Of a DNA stretch of 64,000 bases, positions 5,876-16,601 are shown one piece after another (positions within the stretch are counted from its first letter, which is position 1; every line of letters starts with the position of its first letter). A program made the translations under genes and the position numbers. Below the pieces are notes generated by a model. The model saw only the letters and a list, made by a program, of their open reading frames with translations. It was not told the DNA's origin and made no database searches. Location of the stretch: positions 620,001-684,000 of the forward strand of contig NZ_CP060414.2 in NCBI RefSeq assembly GCF_014297595.2, read 5' to 3'. Origin of the DNA: Neisseria musculi. Its GTDB lineage: Bacteria > Pseudomonadota > Gammaproteobacteria > Burkholderiales > Neisseriaceae.

Positions 5876-8800
5876 TTATTTGTCTGTCAGTTTCTCCAAG
5901 ACTGCTTTCACGGTGCGGATCCGCGCTTCTATATTGTCCGACACTGCAGTGATGCGCAGTTTGTTGCTGGCGGCCATGCGCCAGTTTTTGTGGCTCTGCA
6001 TCAGCATGATGATGTCGGCGGGGTCGAGGGTATGGTGTTTGCCGAAGGTGAGGGTAATGGCTTCGCTTGTTGCATCGACCGCGTCTATGCCCATTGCTTT
6101 GGCTTTAAGGCGGATGCGGTGGCTTTCGAGCAGGGTTTTGGCGGGCTCTCCGGGTAGGCCGAAGCGGTCTACCAGCTCTTCGTGTACGGCGTTGATCTGT
6201 GCTTCGGTTTCGCAGGCGGCCAGGCGTTTGTAGAGTACCAGCCGTTCGTGGATGTCGGGGCAGTAATCTTCGGGCAGTAGCGCGGGGCTGTGCAGTTTGA
6301 TTTCGGTGGTTACACCCAAAGGCGCATCTAAATCGGGCTGGCGGCCTTTTTTGAGATCGCGCACGGCCTGCTTGAGCATTTCGGTGTAGAGCGTGAAGCC
6401 TACCTGTATCATTTCGCCGCTCTGGCCTTCGCCGAGGATTTCGCCGGCGCCGCGGATTTCCAAATCCTGCATCGCCAGCGTGAAGCCGGCACCGAGTTCG
6501 TCTGCCGCGGCGATGGCGTCCAGCCGCTTTTCGGCGTCTTTGGTGATGTATTCGGGGGTGAGCAGGTAGGCGTAGGCTTGGTGGTGGCTGCGGCCGACAC
6601 GCCCGCGCAGCTGGTGCAGCTGCGCGAGGCCGAATTTGTCGGCGCGGTTGATGATGATGGTGTTGGCGTTGGGGATGTCGATGCCGGTTTCGATGATGGT
6701 GGAACAGAGCAACACGTTAAAACGCTGTTGCAGAAAATCGCGCATCACCTGCTCCAGCTCGCGCTCGCGCAGCCGGCCGTGAGCCACGCCGATGCGGGCT
6801 TCGGGCAGCAGCGTTTCCAGCCGTTCGCGCATATTCTCGATGGTTTCCACTTCGTTGTGCAGAAAAAATACTTGACCGCCGCGCTTGAGTTCGCGCAATA
6901 CGGCTTCGCGTACGCTGCCTTCGCTGAAGGGTTTCACAAAGGTTTTCACCGCCAAACGGCGGTTGGGGGCGGTGGTGATGAGTGAAAAGTCGCGCAGCCC
7001 TTCCAAGGCCATGCTGAGTGTGCGCGGAATCGGCGTGGCGGTCAGCGTGAGCATATCCACGTTGGCGCGAAGGCGTTTGAGCTGCTCTTTTTGGCGCACT
7101 CCGAAGCGGTGTTCTTCATCGATAATCACCAAGCCTAAGTTTTTGAATTGAATATTTTCCTGCACCAGTTTGTGTGTGCCGATCACAATATCTACCGTGC
7201 CATCGGCCATGCCTTTGAGGGTGGCGGTGGTGGTTTTGCCGCTGTTAAAGCGTGAGAGGGCGGCTACTTTCACGGGAAAATCGGCAAAGCGGTCAGCAAA
7301 GTTTTGCGCGTGCTGCTCCACCAAAAGCGTGGTGGGGGCAAGTACGGCCACTTGTTTGCCGCCCATCGCCGCCACAAACGCGGCGCGCAGGGCAACTTCG
7401 GTTTTGCCGAAGCCGACATCGCCGCACACCAGTCTGTCCATCGGCCTGCCTTGGGTGAGGTCTTTGAGCACCGCGCCGATGGCGGCGGCCTGGTCTTCGG
7501 TTTCTTCGTAGCCGAAGCCGTCTGAAAAGGCTTGGTAATCCTGCTCGTTGAAGGCGAATTTGAAGCCCTCCTGTGCTGCGCGGCGGGCATAGAGGTTGAG
7601 CAGCTCGGCGGCGGTGTCGCGCGCTTTTTCGGCGGCCTTGCGTTTGGCTTTGCTCCACGCGCCGCTGCCGAGTTTGTGCAGCTGCACGGTGTCGGCCGCC
7701 TGCCCCGAATAGCGGCTGATCAGGTGCAGGTGTGATACCGGCACATAAAGCTGCGCACCGCCTGCGTATTCGAGCAGCATCATTTCGGCCGGGCCCTCGC
7801 CCAAGTCCATCGTAACCAAGCCCATATAGCGGCCGATGCCGTGTTCTTCGTGCACCACCGGATCGCCTGTGTTGATTTCGGCCAAATCGCGAAGCAGGCC
7901 GTCTGAAACCTGTGCGTGTTTTTTGCGGCGCACACTGCGGCTTTTGGCCACATATTGATACAGTTCGGATTCGGTAACCACGGCCAGGGCAGGGGTGGAG
8001 CCGTCTGAAAGGCCGTCTGAACAACAGCCCGCGGGCAGTTGGAAGCCGTAGGAGAGCGGTGTAACCGTAATCGCCAGCGGCGCATCGCTGCTTAAAAACG
8101 CCTGCCAGCTTCTAACGCTTTCGGGTTTCAGGCCGTGTTGGGCGAAAAAGCCGAGCATGGTTTCGCGCCGCCCCGCGCTTTCGGCGGTGAGCAGGATGCG
8201 GCCGTTGAAGGCCGTCTGAAAGTTTTGCAGCGCAGAGAGCGGGGTTTCGGATTGGCGGTCCACCGCCACATCGGGCAGCGCGTGGTTGGTGCCGTTTAAA
8301 TCGGGCAGGATTTGACCGTAGGCTTTCAGACGGCCTGCAAATTGGTCTTCGCTGAGATACAAATGCTGCGGAGGCAAAGGCGGGTAGGTTTCATCGCCCT
8401 GCGCCATCGCAAAGCGTGATTTGACGTCTGCCCAAAAACGCGAAGCGGCGGCGTGCACATCGCCGATGCACACCAACAGCGCTTCACCGCCGATATAGTC
8501 AAACAGGCTGGAGAGGCCGTTTTCAAAAAACAGCGGCAGGTAATATTCGACTCCCGCGCCGAAACGGCCGCTGCTCACCGCCTGATACACGGCGGCTGCG
8601 TTGTGGTCGGCGTTGATTTCTTCGCGAAAACGCGCGCGGAAGATTTTTTGCGCATCGGCATCGGTGGGAAATTCGTGCGCCGGCAGCAGGCGGATTTCGG
8701 ACACCGGTGCGATGGTGCGCTGGCTGTCGGGGTCGAAGGTTTTGATGCTGTCGATTTCATCGCCGAACAAATCCAGGCGGTAGGGCAGCTCCGCACCCAT

Positions 8801-9304
8801 CGGAAAAATATCGAGAATGCCGCCGCGCATGGCAAATTCGCCCGAGGCCACCACGTTGGAAACATGGCTGTAGCCCGCATCGGCCAAATTGCGGAGCAAG
8901 GCTTCGGCATCGAGCGTCTGCCCCGTTTTCAGCCAAAACGTGCGCCCCAGCAGAAACGGCACCGGCGCGAGTTTCTGCATGGCGGTGGCCACCGGCACAA
9001 CCAACACATCGGCCAAGCCGCTTTTTACCTGCCACAAAGCAGCCAAACGCTCCGACACCAAATCCTGATGCGGCGAAAAGCGTTCATAGGGCAGCGTTTC
9101 CCAGTCGGGCAGAAACACGGCGTTATCCTGCGGACGGAAAAACTGCCAGGCACTCTGCAGGCGCAGGGCCTGTTCGACATCTTGGGTAAGAATCACTTTC
9201 AGCGGTTTTTCGGGCAGATTTTGCGTTAATGCCCACGGCAGGCTGCCGGGGGTGAAATCCAGCCAGCGGGATTTTTGCGAAGGGGCGGGGATAGGGTGGT
9301 TCAT
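5876..9304 (-). CDS. mfd: Transcription-repair coupling factor
   Basis: DNA translocase that removes RNA polymerase stalled at lesions and recruits UvrA. The product is 1142 residues, the usual Mfd size. Order: UvrB-like N-terminal region (LPYERFSPHQD, RGGILDIFP), RNA polymerase interaction domain starting around residue 475 (VVHEEHGIGRYMG), then RecG-like helicase motor with Walker A GDVGFGKTEVAL (about residue 630), DEEH (about 730), LTATPIPRTL, and a TRCF C-terminal domain. Several DUS lie inside the gene in frame, including two abutting copies at 8000-8021, all in poorly conserved loops. It is divergent from the CRISPR locus. Confidence 0.97.
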   Translation of the reverse strand: MNHPIPAPSQKSRWLDFTPGSLPWALTQNLPEKPLKVILTQDVEQALRLQSAWQFFRPQDNAVFLPDWETLPYERFSPHQDLVSERLAALWQVKSGLADVLVVPVATAMQKLAPVPFLLGRTFWLKTGQTLDAEALLRNLADAGYSHVSNVVASGEFAMRGGILDIFPMGAELPYRLDLFGDEIDSIKTFDPDSQRTIAPVSEIRLLPAHEFPTDADAQKIFRARFREEINADHNAAAVYQAVSSGRFGAGVEYYLPLFFENGLSSLFDYIGGEALLVCIGDVHAAASRFWADVKSRFAMAQGDETYPPLPPQHLYLSEDQFAGRLKAYGQILPDLNGTNHALPDVAVDRQSETPLSALQNFQTAFNGRILLTAESAGRRETMLGFFAQHGLKPESVRSWQAFLSSDAPLAITVTPLSYGFQLPAGCCSDGLSDGSTPALAVVTESELYQYVAKSRSVRRKKHAQVSDGLLRDLAEINTGDPVVHEEHGIGRYMGLVTMDLGEGPAEMMLLEYAGGAQLYVPVSHLHLISRYSGQAADTVQLHKLGSGAWSKAKRKAAEKARDTAAELLNLYARRAAQEGFKFAFNEQDYQAFSDGFGYEETEDQAAAIGAVLKDLTQGRPMDRLVCGDVGFGKTEVALRAAFVAAMGGKQVAVLAPTTLLVEQHAQNFADRFADFPVKVAALSRFNSGKTTTATLKGMADGTVDIVIGTHKLVQENIQFKNLGLVIIDEEHRFGVRQKEQLKRLRANVDMLTLTATPIPRTLSMALEGLRDFSLITTAPNRRLAVKTFVKPFSEGSVREAVLRELKRGGQVFFLHNEVETIENMRERLETLLPEARIGVAHGRLRERELEQVMRDFLQQRFNVLLCSTIIETGIDIPNANTIIINRADKFGLAQLHQLRGRVGRSHHQAYAYLLTPEYITKDAEKRLDAIAAADELGAGFTLAMQDLEIRGAGEILGEGQSGEMIQVGFTLYTEMLKQAVRDLKKGRQPDLDAPLGVTTEIKLHSPALLPEDYCPDIHERLVLYKRLAACETEAQINAVHEELVDRFGLPGEPAKTLLESHRIRLKAKAMGIDAVDATSEAITLTFGKHHTLDPADIIMLMQSHKNWRMAASNKLRITAVSDNIEARIRTVKAVLEKLTDK

Positions 9305-9555: not shown

Positions 9556-12216
9556 ATGTTGAATTCAACCGCTAAAGTGGCTTTCGCTGCCTATTTGCAC
9601 GATTTGGGCAAATTTGTAGAACGGGCGCGCTTGGATGTGCCGGATGACGAGCTGCAAACCCATGTGCAACTTTATTGCCCCCGTTTGTTTGTTGACGGCA
9701 AGCCGGGCCGGCAATATACGCACAAAGATGTTTTGGAACAGCACGTGCCGGATTGGGAGTGCGGCGATATGTATCCGTTTGCCGATAGGGCGCAAGTGGA
9801 CAAAACCGATTCTCTGCTCCATGCCGCTGCCATGCACCACAAGCCCGAAACCTTTCTGCAATGGATTATTGCCACTGCTGACCGTGTGGCTTCGGGCTTT
9901 GGGCGGGAAACGTTCGAACACTACAACCAAAGCGATGATACCGCACCGGCCAACGGCAACCGGCAAACCGGTAAAAACCACTATCAGACGCGTTTGTTGA
10001 CGCTGTTTGAACAAATCGCCGTCCACTGGCAGGCCGAATCTTTGGATAACGCTGATTTGGATTATTGCTATCCGCTCAAGGCCTTGTCGCCCGAGTCAAT
10101 CTTTCCGCAAAAGCGCGAAACGGGCGAGCCGGGCGACAACCAACGGGCGCAGGCGGAATATCGGGATTTGTGGCAAAAATTTTTGCAGGCCTTGGAGACG
10201 ATACCGGTTTCACACCGCCAAAACTGGGATTTATGGTTAGATCATTTTGATACCCTGTGGCAAACCTACACCCATGCTATTCCTGCCGCAACCGCTTTCG
10301 GCGTGAAGCCCGAAGTGTCTTTATATGACCACAGTAAAACTACGGCCGCGCTGGCCGCCGCTTTGTGGCGCTGGCATGAAGCAAACGGGCAAACCGGTGA
10401 TGAAGCGGTGCAGGCACTAAAAAGCCGCAGTGATTGGGATGAGCAGAAAATCCTGCTGATTCAGGGCGATTTTTTCGGTATTCAGAATTTTATTTTTGCT
10501 TCGGGCAGCCAAACCAACAAACGCGCCGCCAAGTTATTGCGCGGCCGCTCGTTTCAGGTGTCGCTGTTTGCCGAACTGGCGGCCTTGAAAGTGTTGCGTG
10601 CCTGCGGCTTGCCGTCTGTTTCACAGATTTTAAATGCCGCCGGCAAATTTATGATTGTGGCACCCAATACTGCAGACGTACGCACAGCGGTGGAAACAGT
10701 GAAAGCAGAAATCAACGCTTGGTTTATCCGGCACAGCTTCGGCCAAGTGGCTATGGGCTTGTCGGTGCAGGCGGCAAGCTGCAATGATTTCACCGATAAA
10801 GAACGTTTTGCCGAGTTGGTGAAACAATCGTTTGCCGTGTTGGAACGGGCTAAGCTGCAACGCTTTAACCTGACCGCAGACACTCCTGCCGTGTTAAACG
10901 CGGATTACAGCCAATGCGCAGCCGGCAGCGTGTGCAGCTACAACCAGCAGTTGCCCGCAGAAATCGAGGCAGACGGCCGGGCGGCGGCACGCTTGTCGCA
11001 AGACCAGATTACCTTGGGCAATCTGTTGACCAAGCAAAACCGTATTTTGGTATTGGAAAAGGGTGGTCAGGTGCATTCCGGCGGTAATACCGTCAAATTG
11101 CGCCTGCCCGTGTTTGGTCTGCATATAGCCTTTACTGCCGAAGACATCAGCGGCAAATTCGGCACGCAGGCGGCGGAGGGCACTTTATGGCGTTTTTGGG
11201 ATTTCAGCCTGCCCGAGCAGCTTGGTGATCATGTTTGGAAAGGCTATGCCCGCCGCTACATCAATGCTTATGTGCCCCATTTCAGTGAGGCCGATGAATG
11301 GTTGAATCAAAAATACAGCCCGGTGCGTGGCGAGGATGATCAAACGGAAATCGAAGCCGGACAGCCGAAAACCTTTAACCATTTGGCCTGTGAAGACAGA
11401 ACCAGTGAAAACAGAACCAGTGAAAACGGGCAGCAGTTTATCGGCAAAGTAGCCATTGCCGCTTTAAAAGGCGATGTCGATAATCTCGGCACCATCTTCC
11501 AGAAAGGTTTGCAGGCACCCACTTTTGCCAAGATGGCGGCACTTTCCCGCCAGGTGAACCACTTTTTCAGCTTGTGGCTGCCGGCTTATTGTGCCGAACA
11601 TTATCCGAACACCTATACCGTCTTTGCCGGCGGCGACGATTTCTTTCTCATCGGCCCGTGGCTGCAAACGCAAAAACTGGCGGCCGATATGCGGGAGGCG
11701 TTTGGCCGTTATGTGGCCGGCAATGAGGAAATCAGTTTCAGCGCCGGTATTTACATCACCAAACCCGGCCTGCCTTTGGGCGGATTATCAGCCGGAGCGG
11801 AAGAGGCTTTGGGCTCAGCCAAAAGCTTGTGCCATTCGCAATACGGGCAGAAAAACAGCCTCTGCGTTTACGGAACCAGTGTTTCATGGCACGAATGGCA
11901 CGCGATTGAAACTGCTGCGGCAAGAATCGGTGAATTAAAAGATGCTTACGGATTAAGCACCGGTTTTATATACGATATGTTGCAGTTTTGCGAAGCGGCG
12001 GGCCGGGAGCGCAACGGCGATATTGCAGCCTGCATGTGGCACAGCCGTTTGGCTTACCGCATCCGCCGCCATGTGGACGACAACAAAAAAATCATCAGCA
12101 AAAACAATGCTTACGCCAAATTGATCGAAGCGTTTTATAAAAACGGCATTAAGCATTTGGAAGCGAAATACCGTATTCCCCTGTTTAACCACTTTTATTT
12201 ACTGAGGGCAAAATAA
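9556..12216 (+). CDS. cas10: Type III-A CRISPR Cas10/Csm1
   Basis: Large subunit of the Csm complex; on target RNA binding it makes cyclic oligoadenylates with its Palm domain and cuts ssDNA with its HD domain. The product is 886 residues. N-terminal HD motif in AAYLHDLGKF (His14-Asp15), conserved FFGIQNFIFASGS segment near residue 310, and the polymerase-type GGDD at residues 692-695 (FAGGDDFFLIGPW), followed by a C-terminal helical domain (AYAKLIEAFYKNGI). All key residues look intact and no frameshift is seen, in contrast to the genes downstream. The stop overlaps the csm2 start by one base (TAATG), indicating coupled translation. Its inactivation cannot be inferred from its own sequence. 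Confidence 0.95.
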   Translation: MLNSTAKVAFAAYLHDLGKFVERARLDVPDDELQTHVQLYCPRLFVDGKPGRQYTHKDVLEQHVPDWECGDMYPFADRAQVDKTDSLLHAAAMHHKPETFLQWIIATADRVASGFGRETFEHYNQSDDTAPANGNRQTGKNHYQTRLLTLFEQIAVHWQAESLDNADLDYCYPLKALSPESIFPQKRETGEPGDNQRAQAEYRDLWQKFLQALETIPVSHRQNWDLWLDHFDTLWQTYTHAIPAATAFGVKPEVSLYDHSKTTAALAAALWRWHEANGQTGDEAVQALKSRSDWDEQKILLIQGDFFGIQNFIFASGSQTNKRAAKLLRGRSFQVSLFAELAALKVLRACGLPSVSQILNAAGKFMIVAPNTADVRTAVETVKAEINAWFIRHSFGQVAMGLSVQAASCNDFTDKERFAELVKQSFAVLERAKLQRFNLTADTPAVLNADYSQCAAGSVCSYNQQLPAEIEADGRAAARLSQDQITLGNLLTKQNRILVLEKGGQVHSGGNTVKLRLPVFGLHIAFTAEDISGKFGTQAAEGTLWRFWDFSLPEQLGDHVWKGYARRYINAYVPHFSEADEWLNQKYSPVRGEDDQTEIEAGQPKTFNHLACEDRTSENRTSENGQQFIGKVAIAALKGDVDNLGTIFQKGLQAPTFAKMAALSRQVNHFFSLWLPAYCAEHYPNTYTVFAGGDDFFLIGPWLQTQKLAADMREAFGRYVAGNEEISFSAGIYITKPGLPLGGLSAGAEEALGSAKSLCHSQYGQKNSLCVYGTSVSWHEWHAIETAAARIGELKDAYGLSTGFIYDMLQFCEAAGRERNGDIAACMWHSRLAYRIRRHVDDNKKIISKNNAYAKLIEAFYKNGIKHLEAKYRIPLFNHFYLLRAK

Positions 12217-12608
12217 TGGACTTGAACCGAATCAAATTAAATACCGAGCAGTTGCCGGTGGATATTTTCAGCACCGTGGCGCAAGAGGCGGCGGAATATA
12301 TCCACGATTTCAATAAAAGTAAAAATAAATCCACCCAATTGCGTAAGTTTTACGATGAATTGGCCATGTGGCACGACAAGGTTTTTCAGGCGGCCGACCG
12401 TGCGGGCGAATACCAAAAAGCCGCACCGTTTATTCAGATGCTGAAAGCCAAAGCCGCTTATGCAAGAGGAAGGGAGCATGTTAATGAACAGTTTGTCGAC
12501 ATGTTTAACCACATCATCGACCAGATTAACAGCGCAGATGCCTTAAAAAACGCCAAACTCTTTTTTGAGGCCGTATTGGGTTTCCGCAAAGTCAGCGAAG
12601 CCAAATAA
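12216..12608 (+). CDS. csm2: Type III-A CRISPR Csm2 small subunit
   Basis: Small alpha-helical subunit that lines the target RNA groove of the Csm complex. The product is 130 residues, the usual size, with the conserved region STQLRKFYDEL and a following ALKNAKLFFEAVLGF helix. It starts in the stop codon of cas10 and is followed 14 bases later by csm3 with an AGGAG ribosome site. It appears intact. Confidence 0.9.
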   Translation: MDLNRIKLNTEQLPVDIFSTVAQEAAEYIHDFNKSKNKSTQLRKFYDELAMWHDKVFQAADRAGEYQKAAPFIQMLKAKAAYARGREHVNEQFVDMFNHIIDQINSADALKNAKLFFEAVLGFRKVSEAK

Positions 12609-12622
12609 TTCAGGAGAACAAC

Positions 12623-13073
12623 ATGAAATTAGCAAACATTCACATTTTGGAAGCCAAGCTGGTGTTGCAAACCGGTTTGCACATCGGCGCGGGCGACAGC
12701 GAAATCCATATCGGCGGCATCGACAACAGCGTGATCAAACACCCGGTGAGCGGCGAGCCGTATATTCCCGGCAGCAGCCTCAAAGGCAAAATCCGCAGCC
12801 TGCTGGAATGGAAAAGCGGCGTGGTGCAGGAAGCACCGCTGGGCAAACGTGAATATGAAACCGCACAAGGCGCGGAAAAAACCGCCGTCAAACACATTCT
12901 GCAACTGTTCGGCATCAGCGGAGACAGCCAAAGCGAAGCCTTGCAGCAGGAAATCGGCCACACCCGCGTTTCGTTTTGGGATTGCGGCTTGAATCCGGAT
13001 TATGCGCAACGCTTGTGCGAAGATAATCTGCTGTTTACCGAAGTGAAAAGCGAAACCATGATTAACCGAATCA
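12623..13073 (+). pseudogene. csm3: Csm3 backbone subunit, C terminus lost
   Basis: Csm3 is the repeating RAMP subunit and target RNase. The first 150 residues are good Csm3: LVLQTGLHIGAGDSEIHIGG with the catalytic Asp region (Asp34 in GGIDN), PYIPGSSLKGKIRSLLE, GHTRVSFWDC and LLFTEVKSETMINRI. Homology stops at the Arg-Ile of INRI (about 13072), where Csm3 normally continues for roughly 70 more residues. The frame runs on to 13339 through unrelated element sequence. csm4 and csm5 are absent downstream. The fragment keeps the RNase aspartate but not the fold's second half. Confidence 0.85.
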
Positions 13074-13091
13074 GGTGTAGGAAATTCCAGC

Positions 13092-13283
13092 GTTGTTTAC
13101 ACTTTCCGTTTTTTGCATGCAGACCCATTTTGGGATTTTTGAGGGTTGTCAAGAATGCCGAAAGGCACGGCGAAGCCGCATCGTTCTTGAGAATGCTCCA
13201 AAATCACGAAACCATCATTCCAGCAAAAAAACAAAAGCTGTTTGGCATAAAAAGTGTAAACAACCCGACCTTTTCCAACACAC
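13092..13283. repeat. Inverted-repeat element at the csm3 break
   Basis: A 14-base perfect inverted repeat, GTTGTTTACACTTT at 13092-13105 and AAAGTGTAAACAAC at 13251-13264, bounds 173 bp with no gene. The right end plus 19 further bases (to 13283) reappears at 53584-53632 with few mismatches, so it is a dispersed repeat. It sits exactly between the csm3 truncation and the cas1 scrap. Confidence 0.7.
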
Positions 13284-13525
13284 GGGCGGGAATCGTTGGC
13301 TTGCGATTTGATCGAGCCGATACGCCCGTTTTACGATGAATGGGCAGTTGCTTTGTTTGCCGAGGGGGCTGCGTGTTGAAGATTTTTCGATGCGCGGCGG
13401 TGCGTGCGAAATGGGCAAGGCCGGCAGAATGCGCTTTTATGCGGCTTTTGAAACGGCGGCAAAATCATGGCGGCCGCAAATGCGCCGTTTGTGTATGGAT
13501 TTACTTTCGGCACTGGGGAGTGAGC
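13284..13525 (+). pseudogene. cas1: Cas1 C-terminal fragment
   Basis: Frame 3 from 13290 reads ESLACDLIEPIRPFYDEWAV then ALFAEG, the Cas1 segment with the metal-binding acidic residue in the DLIEPxRP block. In the run of five G (13370-13374) the frame shifts; frame 1 continues as LRVEDFSMRGGACEMGKAGR and MRFYAAFETAAKSW, the usual Cas1 C-terminal helices, to about SALGSEL. Removing one G restores a single frame. Everything N-terminal of this (about three quarters of Cas1) is gone, so the integrase is dead. The family is assigned by motif recall; no alignment was run. Confidence 0.7.
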
Positions 13526-14524
13526 TGGGCGATGAAAGCGGATGTTTTGCCGAATCTGAAATGGTGGCGGCAGAGAAAGATGATGCGCTGGCTGATGCTT
13601 ATAATATGGCACAGGTAGGTAAGGAGATATTTAACCTGCTGCGCGATATGGATAAGGAACAAGTGGCGCTAAATGTAACCGGCGGCACCAAGCTGATGGC
13701 AATCGCGGCATTTGCAATGTTTAAAGAGGCGGGCTATCCATCGTTTTATTTCACAGCAAACAGCAATGAAGTGCTGCTGTTGGATAATAACAAGCGTTTG
13801 TCGCTAAAACCACCTAAAATCAAAATCGAAGATTATTTGATGCTGCACGGCTATCCGGCTCGGCATAAGCTGCAAAAGCAGCTAACGCATCGTGAGTGGC
13901 TGCCGTTTGCAGAAGAGCTGGTGCGTGCAAAGCACAGGTTGGAGTCGGAGTTGGGGCAGCTTAATTATAAGATTTCAAAGGCGGATAAGCGGGCATTGAA
14001 ATGTAAAGTGCCTGCCGGCACCGTTGCGCATAATATGCAGTATTTACTGGAACTGTTGGAAAAATACGGCTTGGCACGACAGCAGGGCGGTTGTTTGGTG
14101 TTTGCCGATGAAGAGGCCAAGCAATATGCGGCGGGCGGTTGGTTTGAGGATTATGTGTTTCAGACGGCCAAATCTTTGCCGGGTGTGCAGGATGTGGCAC
14201 TGAACGTGCAGATTGAAAATGCCAAAGAGCAGGTGTTCCAACACTGAATTGGATGTGTTGCTGCTGGCAAACAATGTGTCGCATGTGTTGGAGTGCAAAA
14301 CGGCCAATTTTGCCAAAAATGAGGATAAGGCCGGGGATGCGCTGTATAAGCTGGAATCACTGAAAAAACTCGGTGGCCTGAGAACAAAAGCGATGCTGCT
14401 GTCGTATCGGGAATTGACCGGAAAAATCCGCAACCGTGCAGAGGGGGCGCAAATCAAGATTATCGAACAGAAGGATTTGAGCGGCATGAAAACACTGCTG
14501 GAGAAATGGGTAAATGGCCGCTAA
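13526..14524 (+). pseudogene. Card1/Can2-like CARF nuclease, N-truncated and frameshifted
   Basis: CARF-domain end is visible as VALNVTGGTKLMAIAAFAMF (TGGTK loop that contacts cyclic oligoadenylate), then a linker domain, then a PD-(D/E)xK nuclease: GGWFEDYVF (Glu), TELDVLLL (Asp), SHVLECKTANF (ExK). This order matches DUF1887 proteins such as Card1/Can2, cA4-activated nucleases of type III CRISPR. About 60-100 N-terminal residues are missing, replaced in frame by Cas1 sequence. Around 14233-14240 the frame shifts (ENAKEQ, then NTELDV in another frame), splitting off the catalytic half; one extra base explains it. The 3' end overlaps the next gene by 11 bases. Confidence 0.75.
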
Positions 14525-15644
14525 AAAAAGAATCTTGGTGGCGGTTACCGGTATGTCGCCGCAGATTGTTACGGAAACGCTGTATGCGCTCCATACGCAG
14601 CAGCAATGGCTGCCGCAGGAAGTGTATGTGTTAACCACGCAAACCGGTGCTGCCAATATTGCCAACTCCCTCTTGGGGGAGGGCGGTTTTTTCCGGCGCT
14701 TGTGCGAAGAATATGAATTGCAGGATATTGCTTTCGATAAGGATTTTATCCATGTGATACGCGATGGGGCGGGGCAGCCGCTGGCCGATATCCGTTCGCC
14801 GCAGGAAAACAATCTGGCGGCAGACCAGATTGTGCGCTTTATTTACGATTTGTGTGCCGATGGGCAAACCGAACTGCATGTGTCGATTGCGGGCGGGCGC
14901 AAATCGATGGGGTTTTACATCGGTTACGCGTTGTCGCTCTTCGGCCGCAGGCAGGATAGATTGTCGCATGTGCTGGTGGAAGAGGCTTTCGAGCAGCACC
15001 GCGAATTTTTCTATCCGCCGCGCCAAAGCGTGTGGCTGGATACGGCCAAAGGCCGTTTGGACGCTTCGCAGGCGCAGGTGATGTTGGCCGATATTCCTTT
15101 TGTCCGTATGCGCGAAGGAATGCCGAAACTGCGGTTGGCCGATAACTGGAATTTTTCTCAGGCGGTAGAATTGACGCAAAAGAGCTTTAGTGATTTTAAT
15201 TTGTTGATCGACTGCCCGACTATGAACATAGTTTGCGGCAATATGGAGCCGATCAAGCTGGCGGAACGCGAATTCAGTTTTTATTTGGCGATGGCCGAAT
15301 TCAAACAGGAAGGCATTGTGTTGTGCAGGCAGAGAAACAGCCCCGATTATCAGTGTTTGAAAGAGCGTTATTGGCAGCATTACTGCCGGTTTAAAAAAGA
15401 TCTGCAGGGAAGCGGCCCTCAGGCGAAGCGCCGCCGTGAGGAGGCTTATCAGAATTTGGATATCGGTGAAATCTGGAAAGAAATGCCGACACGGATTAAA
15501 AAAGTGTTGGAGCGCCATTTGGACGATTATGCCAAGCATTACCTGATTAACAGCTCGGGATTGAGAAACAGCTTGAATTATCAACTGGAAACAGATAAAA
15601 ACAGAATCCGAATCCGGTATGTTAGCGCGGATGATCAAGGGTAA
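14514..15644 (+). CDS. CRISPR-associated NE0113-family CARF/ring-nuclease-like protein
   Basis: The product is 376 residues. The N terminus KRILVAVTGMSPQIVTETLY and the later SIAGGRKSMGFYIGYALSLF are the signature blocks of the NE0113 family (Csm6-like / ring nuclease annotation), a CARF-type fold that binds or degrades cyclic oligoadenylates. The C-terminal part (PIKLAEREFSFYLAMAE onward) looks winged-helix-like; I do not see a clean RxxxxH HEPN RNase motif, so RNase activity is uncertain. ATG at 14514 overlaps the preceding CARF nuclease by 11 bases. The gene has no visible damage. Confidence 0.8.
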   Translation: MAAKKRILVAVTGMSPQIVTETLYALHTQQQWLPQEVYVLTTQTGAANIANSLLGEGGFFRRLCEEYELQDIAFDKDFIHVIRDGAGQPLADIRSPQENNLAADQIVRFIYDLCADGQTELHVSIAGGRKSMGFYIGYALSLFGRRQDRLSHVLVEEAFEQHREFFYPPRQSVWLDTAKGRLDASQAQVMLADIPFVRMREGMPKLRLADNWNFSQAVELTQKSFSDFNLLIDCPTMNIVCGNMEPIKLAEREFSFYLAMAEFKQEGIVLCRQRNSPDYQCLKERYWQHYCRFKKDLQGSGPQAKRRREEAYQNLDIGEIWKEMPTRIKKVLERHLDDYAKHYLINSSGLRNSLNYQLETDKNRIRIRYVSADDQG

Positions 15645-15711: not shown

Positions 15712-16476
15712 ATGAACACTGTTACAGTCAAAAATACCGTTTTGGGCGAAGGCCGCCCGAAAATCGCCGTGCCGCTGGCGGCCGAAGATTCAGACGGCCT
15801 GCAGTCGGCATTGCAGGGTTTGCAGGGGCTGCCTTTCGATGTGGCGGAGTTGCGCGCAGACTTTCTCAAGCAGGCGGCCGATGCGGGATATGTGATGGAT
15901 TGTTTGCGGCAGGTGCGCGCGGCATTGCCCGATAAGCCGCTGCTGTTTACCTTCAGGCGGGCAGAAGAGGGAGGCAGATGCCCGGTTGCACAAGATGATT
16001 ATTTTGCGCTGGTGCAGGCAGCCATACGCTCGGGTTGGGCGGATATGGTCGATATCGAGCTGTTTGCGGGCGAGGCGCAGGTGAAAGAAAGCGCGGCACT
16101 GGCCAAATCACACGGTGTGGCCGCGCTGCTGTGCAACCACGATTTCGATGCCACGCCGCCGAAAGAAGAGATTATCGCCCGCCTGCAAACCATGCAGGAT
16201 TGGGGGGCGGACATCTGCAAAATCGCCGTGATGCCGCAGTCTCCTGCCGATGTTTTGGTGTTGCTCGATGCCGCGCAAACGATGTTCCGCCATTATGCGA
16301 AGCAGCCGCTGGTTGCGGTGGCGATGGGCAAGATGGGCGTTATCAGCCGCCTGGCAGGCGGAACATTCGGCTCGGCGATGACGTTTGGCGCGGCAACAAA
16401 GGCATCGGCACCGGGGCAGATAGCGGTTAATGATTTGCGCACGGTTTTGGATATTTTGGCGGATGAGGCCGTCTGA
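15712..16476 (+). CDS. aroD: 3-dehydroquinate dehydratase, type I
   Basis: Third step of the shikimate pathway: removes water from 3-dehydroquinate through a Schiff base. The product is 254 residues with catalytic Glu86 (FRRAEEGG), His143 (LCNHDF) and Lys170 (DICKIAVMP) at the same numbers as in enteric AroD. AGGAACG before the ATG is the ribosome site. A DUS lies just upstream (15676-15687) and another supplies the stop codon: GCC GTC TGA is the core of the first unit of the tandem DUS array, giving the C terminus EAV. Confidence 0.96.
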   Translation: MNTVTVKNTVLGEGRPKIAVPLAAEDSDGLQSALQGLQGLPFDVAELRADFLKQAADAGYVMDCLRQVRAALPDKPLLFTFRRAEEGGRCPVAQDDYFALVQAAIRSGWADMVDIELFAGEAQVKESAALAKSHGVAALLCNHDFDATPPKEEIIARLQTMQDWGADICKIAVMPQSPADVLVLLDAAQTMFRHYAKQPLVAVAMGKMGVISRLAGGTFGSAMTFGAATKASAPGQIAVNDLRTVLDILADEAV

Positions 16477-16601
16477 AAGGTTAAGGCCGTCTGAAAGGTT
16501 GAGGCCGTCTGAAAGGTTGAGGCCGTCTGAAAGGTTGAGGCCGTCTGAAAGGTTGAGGCCGTCTGAAAGGTTGAGGCCGTCTGAAAGGTTTCAGACGGCC
16601 T
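16466..16601 (+). repeat. Tandem array of seven DNA uptake sequences
   Basis: AGGCCGTCTGAA starts at 16466, 16484, 16502, 16520, 16538, 16556 and 16574, an exact 18-bp period with spacer AGGTTG (AGGTTA once), and ends in an inverted copy at 16590-16601. It overlaps the aroD stop. It is not CRISPR: there are no variable spacers. The 81-residue frame through it (RPSERL repeats) is an artefact. Confidence 0.97.

Follow-up and report, generated by a model that had tools for sequence, protein, structure and literature searches.

Why should a cas10 gene remain open when the genes around it are broken? This question is raised by a type III-A CRISPR (clustered regularly interspaced short palindromic repeats)-Cas locus in the window, by which we mean the whole 64,000-nucleotide stretch analysed here (G000:C1:620001-684000, from a genome of 2,933,059 bases in 2 contigs, scored 100% complete). 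An earlier note on this DNA had described the locus as reduced to a signalling core and had offered three options, namely recent decay, backbone parts encoded elsewhere, or another use for Cas10-Csm2. Our results make it highly probable that this is a recently broken type III-A locus of the ordinary kind, in which cas10 is open because it has not yet decayed; the open cas10, csm2 and NE0113 frames are most likely young leftovers of a dead locus. The features are as follows.

9556..12216, plus strand: cas10/csm1, 886 codons, open, GGDD at residues 692-695, HD domain damaged (open reading frame; TIGR02578, 690 bits)
9724..9729, plus strand: site where the HD domain lost 27 nt in frame, HAAYTALAW being absent between K57 and D58 (alignment with relatives)
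12216..12608, plus strand: csm2, 130 codons, open frame (TIGR01870, 66 bits)
12623..13075, plus strand: csm3 stub, with homology as far as about codon 150 of 236, its frame continuing through the next element to 13339 (TIGR02582, 125 bits)
13076..13280, no strand assigned: 205-bp hairpin repeat element resembling a miniature inverted-repeat transposable element (MITE), exactly at the csm3/cas1 deletion junction (alignment, copy search)
13281..13600, plus strand: C-terminal scrap of cas1, 2 nt deleted, that overlaps the beginning of the second cas2 (alignment to relatives)
13590..13609, plus strand: second deletion junction, cas1/cas2 to the interior of card1, with a short imperfect direct repeat (alignment)
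13600..14524, plus strand: card1/can2 remnant, first ~70 codons gone, reading frame shifted by loss of 2 nt at ~14245, inside the nuclease domain (Pfam, tblastn)
14514..15644, plus strand: NE0113-family CARF protein gene, 376 codons, open (TIGR02584, 241 bits)

The probable death of this type III-A locus is unusually legible: the main deletion has a dispersed hairpin element at its join, and a separate break in an effector gene and an in-frame loss from the HD nuclease, with the cyclase gene still open, add to that legibility.

The intact locus and its deletions

Cas10 was present in 5 of the 83 genomes of the family, the window genome (G000) and four others of the same genus, with identities to the window Cas10 of 90% (G019), 81% (G025), 70% (G046) and 72% (G042). 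In the fetched loci of all four relatives, tblastn recovered 12 genes in the order cas10-csm2-csm3-csm4-csm5-cas6-cas2-cas1-cas2-csx16-card1-NE0113, with a repeat array after cas6 and before cas2-cas1-cas2; the fetched G046 and G042 stretches end within NE0113, and the card1 of G042 is distant (33% identity). The window keeps this gene order but, unlike these type III-A (Csm) loci, lacks the C-terminal third of csm3, csm4, csm5, cas6, the array, csx16, the start of card1, most of cas1 and, except for the first codons, both cas2 genes. It retains two parts of a working type III-A system, a GGDD-bearing Cas10/Csm1 and Csm2, and lacks the Csm3-Csm4-Csm5 backbone, Cas6 and a cognate repeat array.

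Much of the inventory in the earlier note was borne out: csm2 and the NE0113-family gene are open, csm3 is truncated, cas1 is a scrap, and the window locus has neither csm4, csm5 nor cas6, no complete cas2 and no array. The note had overlooked the card1/Can2 remnant (frames 13336-14247 and 14213-14524) and the 205-bp element.

Relative to G019, the first junction replaced ~6.0 kb, from the C-terminal part of csm3 through most of cas1, with ~205 bp. The homology of csm3 stops at codon 150 of 236 and its TIGR02582 match spans only positions 4-143 of the 203 in the profile, while the cas1 remnant of ~320 nt corresponds to residues 250-354 of 356. The insert is one copy of a dispersed hairpin element; it is short and has imperfect inverted ends, as MITE-like elements do, and folds strongly (z = -4.2). 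At least 17 matches, the window copy included, were found in G000, a lower bound obtained with 17 of 77 candidates scored, and the flanks of 11 other copies were aligned. The copy at C1:2.676 Mb is identical to the junction element over all 205 bp. The second junction (~13590-13609) fused the stretch where cas1 and the second cas2 overlap to an internal part of card1; ~1.3 kb was lost there, with cas2, csx16 and ~70 codons from the start of card1.

We propose that a complete type III-A locus, such as four other species of the genus still carry, was disabled in the window lineage, probably recently. The deletion from csm3 to cas1 may have arisen by recombination between two copies of the element or by a transposition-associated deletion, and a second deletion at the short direct repeat joined cas1/cas2 to card1, which also became frameshifted. 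The three frames left open (cas10, csm2 and NE0113) may still be expressed. According to one report, Cas10 makes its messenger only when a crRNA (CRISPR RNA)-guided complex binds target RNA (PMC7854544). With no crRNA, Csm3-5 backbone or Cas6, the cyclase would not be switchable by target RNA, and the locus is thus most likely dead.

Two further observations concern the relatives and the element. In G019 (locus L007, 4854-5817, minus strand) cas1 lies in two frames within a III-A locus that is otherwise complete and has only 6 repeat matches, so the acquisition genes of the sister are not whole either; in L008 (4431-5995, minus strand) cas1 stands between two Cas2-family genes, and this cas2-cas1-cas2 order is repeated in L007, L009 and L010. 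The hairpin element was matched in 18 of 46 genus genomes and in none of the other 28; it also occurs in G019, G020, G024, G050 and G051, and 17-20 matches are listed in some genus genomes.

Cas10 and the effector genes

The earlier note had called both the HD and the GGDD of Cas10 intact. The 886 codons are indeed open, and the GGDD, the HD dyad (H15-D16) and His94-His95 are retained; the HD domain, however, has lost nine conserved residues. An in-frame 27-nt deletion after codon 57 removes the block HAAYTALAW, which is kept in all four same-genus relatives. An alignment of 120 homologues, counting that of the window, has the leading His of this block in 113 rows and the Thr in 116; only three rows have a gap across most of the block, namely the window Cas10 and two proteins whose HD domain is eroded. 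Of the features of a Cas10 HD single-strand DNase, the dyad is thus present and the further conserved His/Thr block deleted. The block is probably needed for nuclease activity; no solved Cas10 structure aligned over it, and its role is therefore judged from conservation.

The two eroded proteins, P0023 and P0025, are Cas10s of 850 and 843 residues. They resemble the window Cas10 in that the HD block is gone and the remainder present. Unlike these two, which lack the His block and have IY in place of HH, the window protein lost nine residues and keeps both the dyad and the later HH motif. The window Cas10 belongs to a 90% cluster of 2 member sequences on 8 contigs.

These features bear on whether a nuclease-dead, signalling-only III-A system was established before the large deletion. 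This reading is compatible with recent breakage, as two superposed steps, and we regard it as a genuine possibility, to be held tentatively. The loss from the HD domain may predate the large deletion and fall in a time when Cas10 was still under selection, as its being in frame suggests. Five changes at strongly conserved sites were counted in 337 columns of the window Cas10, and four of the five fall in the HD domain. P0023 and P0025 offer examples of an eroded HD with the rest present, and an HD domain is recognisable in only 65% of III-A loci, according to one report (PMC11229360). Against such an earlier state, silent and replacement changes on the window branch did not differ between the HD domain (5/8) and the rest of Cas10 (51/40; p = 0.25). 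As a sign of decay, a surplus of changes at the strongly conserved positions of Cas10 was weak and was set aside, because 35 of the 120 rows (window included) have at least five such changes; the three rows nearest the window have 0, 2 and 1.

The frames at 13336-14247 and 14213-14524 hold a gene for a Card1/Can2 nuclease (Pfam CARF_Card1 and Card1_endonuc), and the two pieces cover residues 71-379 of the protein of a relative; the first ~85 codons of the former frame derive from cas1. The domains are those of the Card1/Can2 nucleases activated by cyclic tetra-adenylate, which carry CARF and endonuclease domains in a single frame. Here, unlike in those nucleases, the start of the CARF domain is lost and the gene is frameshifted and split in two, so that it is not a working gene. 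The other effector candidate matches the NE0113 family (TIGR02584/PF09623; CARF5 in PADLOC) above the curated cut-off, with no difference from the family seen. A structure model and its comparison gave a CARF fold; the comparison barely covered the C-terminal part (~226-376), most of which received no fold assignment. With card1, one of two CARF genes, broken, the ring nuclease gene csx16 gone from the locus and the parts of the crRNA complex missing, the description as a signalling core finds no support.

Selection and the age of the break

We compared substitutions on the window branch with those on the branch of the sister G019, using G025 as outgroup; the comparison is between species and includes one strain of the window species. 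Counts are silent/replacement changes, window then sister, with uncorrected Fisher p on parsimony counts; omega is the replacement-to-silent rate ratio of a branch codon model, in the same order.

cas10: 56/48 and 51/40 (p = 0.77); omega 0.230 and 0.226 (p = 0.97)
csm2: 10/7 and 3/9 (p = 0.13); omega 0.226 and 0.756 (p = 0.24)
csm3 stub: 7/6 and 15/3 (p = 0.11); omega 0.348 and 0.041 (p = 0.044)
card1 pieces: 17/20 and 11/10, 8/6 and 4/4; omega 0.359 and 0.217 (p = 0.67)
NE0113: 14/24 and 22/9 (p = 0.007); omega 0.455 and 0.150 (p = 0.26)
csm3 stub, card1 and NE0113 pooled: omega 0.42 and 0.14 (p = 0.043)
mfd (control): omega 0.074 and 0.077 (p = 0.89)

The results showed that cas10 was constrained for most of the window branch, as it was in the sister, and gave a hint of relaxation of the effector and csm3 pieces on the window branch. 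Omega = 1 on that branch was not rejected for NE0113, card1 or csm3. All seven insertions or deletions relative to the sister in cas10, csm2 and NE0113 were multiples of three, whereas two of three in the cas1/card1 remnants were not, which argues that the three open frames were guarded until recently.

The identity of the junction element to another copy allows a young event, and it is then no surprise to find cas10 open. The identity bounds divergence at 1.45% (95%), absent gene conversion. At half of this per lineage, 0.79 nonsense changes are expected in cas10 and the probability of no stop is at least ~0.45; the probability that cas10 is still open is 0.16 when an indel share of 8% is assumed. 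The claim that Cas10 would not be expected to stay open next to broken partners therefore fails, provided that the event has the young age permitted by the element, and the option of recent decay gains support.

Several results weigh against recent breakage with mere persistence of the frames. Neutrality (omega = 1) over the whole window branch was rejected for cas10 (twice the log-likelihood difference, 22.0) and for csm2 (6.6), as retention would also predict, and the branch carries no surplus of replacement changes in cas10. The maximum-likelihood test was non-significant for NE0113 alone and for card1 alone, and NE0113 is unchanged in 62 strongly conserved columns, as are the seven rows listed beside it. 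Moreover, gene conversion can also give identity between elements, so the event is not firmly dated. The comparison of cas10 rates that the earlier note had proposed, run here between species, did show that the gene is not neutral; cas10 omega is the same, however, in the sister, whose Csm operon is full, and the whole-branch test is thus uninformative about a recent event.

The same data bear on whether Cas10, with Csm2 and the NE0113 protein, has been kept for a crRNA-independent function, for example as a cyclase answering another signal. The open frame with its GGDD, the low cas10 omega with neutrality rejected, the in-frame indels and the unaltered conserved columns of NE0113 would all fit such a function. 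The equal omega in the sister means that time before the deletion explains the constraint, PMC7854544 reports Cas10 cyclase activity only for the crRNA-guided complex bound to target RNA, NE0113 is if anything relaxed in the window lineage, and a comparable reduced locus was seen in none of 45 evaluable Cas10 loci. We therefore consider this function very improbable. It is just as doubtful that Cas10, Csm2 and the NE0113 sensor persist as a module for nucleotide signalling that needs no crRNA, with the backbone, the guide array and probably the HD nuclease lost, and the further use for Cas10-Csm2 that the earlier note envisaged, for which we found no positive support, is equally unlikely. If a retained Cas10 did work alone, it would break the rule that signalling by Cas10 requires a crRNA complex; nothing in the analysis shows Cas10 working alone.

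The survey behind the 45 loci drew on contigs from one genome per species. It comprised 122 stretches that encoded relatives, of which 80 were kept and 45 evaluated, after 35 loci with <5.5 kb following cas10 had been dropped; one of the 45 (L043) is the contig of G042. All 45 keep csm2, csm3, csm4 and csm5, and 43 keep cas6, indicating that reduction of this kind does not recur as a design in the surveyed set. An earlier scan with a single Cas10 query gave no relative; the survey used alignment-derived patterns taken from the start of the HD domain, and it misses Cas10s without that start and is not unbiased.

Missing parts and surroundings of the locus

A further reading holds that the assembly is at fault, with reads collapsed at identical copies of the element and the missing 6 kb present in the cell. 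The junction does coincide with a repeat that has 17 or more matches in the genome, but the assembly has 2 contigs and is scored 100% complete, the missing genes are nowhere in it, and neither the second deletion nor the frameshift nor the HD deletion involves the repeat. Such an artefact is very improbable, slightly more so than a crRNA-independent function.

The genome search for csm3-csm5, cas6 and a type III array suggested in the earlier note returned only the csm3 stub, the sole RAMP-family match in the whole of G000, with no csm4, cas6 or III-A repeat pattern. The same searches found csm3, csm5, csm4 and cas6 in all four relatives, along with 6, 7, 31 and 34 III-A repeat matches; csm5 was sought through the RAMP family only, and those of G019 and G025 fall below the family cut-off. 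The two other CRISPR sites in the genome, cas9-cas1-cas2 at C1:2.24 Mb and cas1-cas2 at C1:0.175 Mb, with no cas9 within the 19 kb fetched around the latter, are type II by profile. Although sharing of parts between CRISPR loci is reported in general (PMC11229360), these results contradict the option that Cas10-Csm2 is served by a backbone, Cas6 and array encoded elsewhere, which is refuted, with next to no probability left to it, unless DNA is missing from the assembly or divergence has put the proteins beyond the reach of the searches.

As a separate observation, the two type II cas1-cas2 sets (L041, 9282-12039; L042, 6655-12647) lie ~2.06 Mb apart and have equal Cas1 family scores; both adjoin arrays with 66-bp spacing, one with cas9 and one without it nearby.

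The locus reads on the plus strand and is flanked by mfd (5876-9304, minus strand) and by a 3-dehydroquinase gene (15712-16476); mfd is found on the same side in G019 and G025. Within it, cas10, csm2, the csm3 stub, the repeat element, the cas1 scrap, the card1 remnant and the NE0113-family gene follow in that order. No Rfam family reached its gathering score in 9.5-15.6 kb, and consensus scans gave 4 promoter-like sites against 6.9 in shuffles and 17 terminator-like sites against 11.6 (sd 3.9). The genome is of Neisseria type, and the closest Cas10 homologues with named records are from Neisseria and Uruburuella; among the papers listed on Neisseria type III-A/Cas10 and on degraded type III loci, titles and abstract openings held nothing about this locus. 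Farther along the window, at 16461-16600, between the 3-dehydroquinase gene and a tetR-type gene, stand about seven tandem 18-bp units, each with GCCGTCTGAA, which we take to be an uptake-like word.

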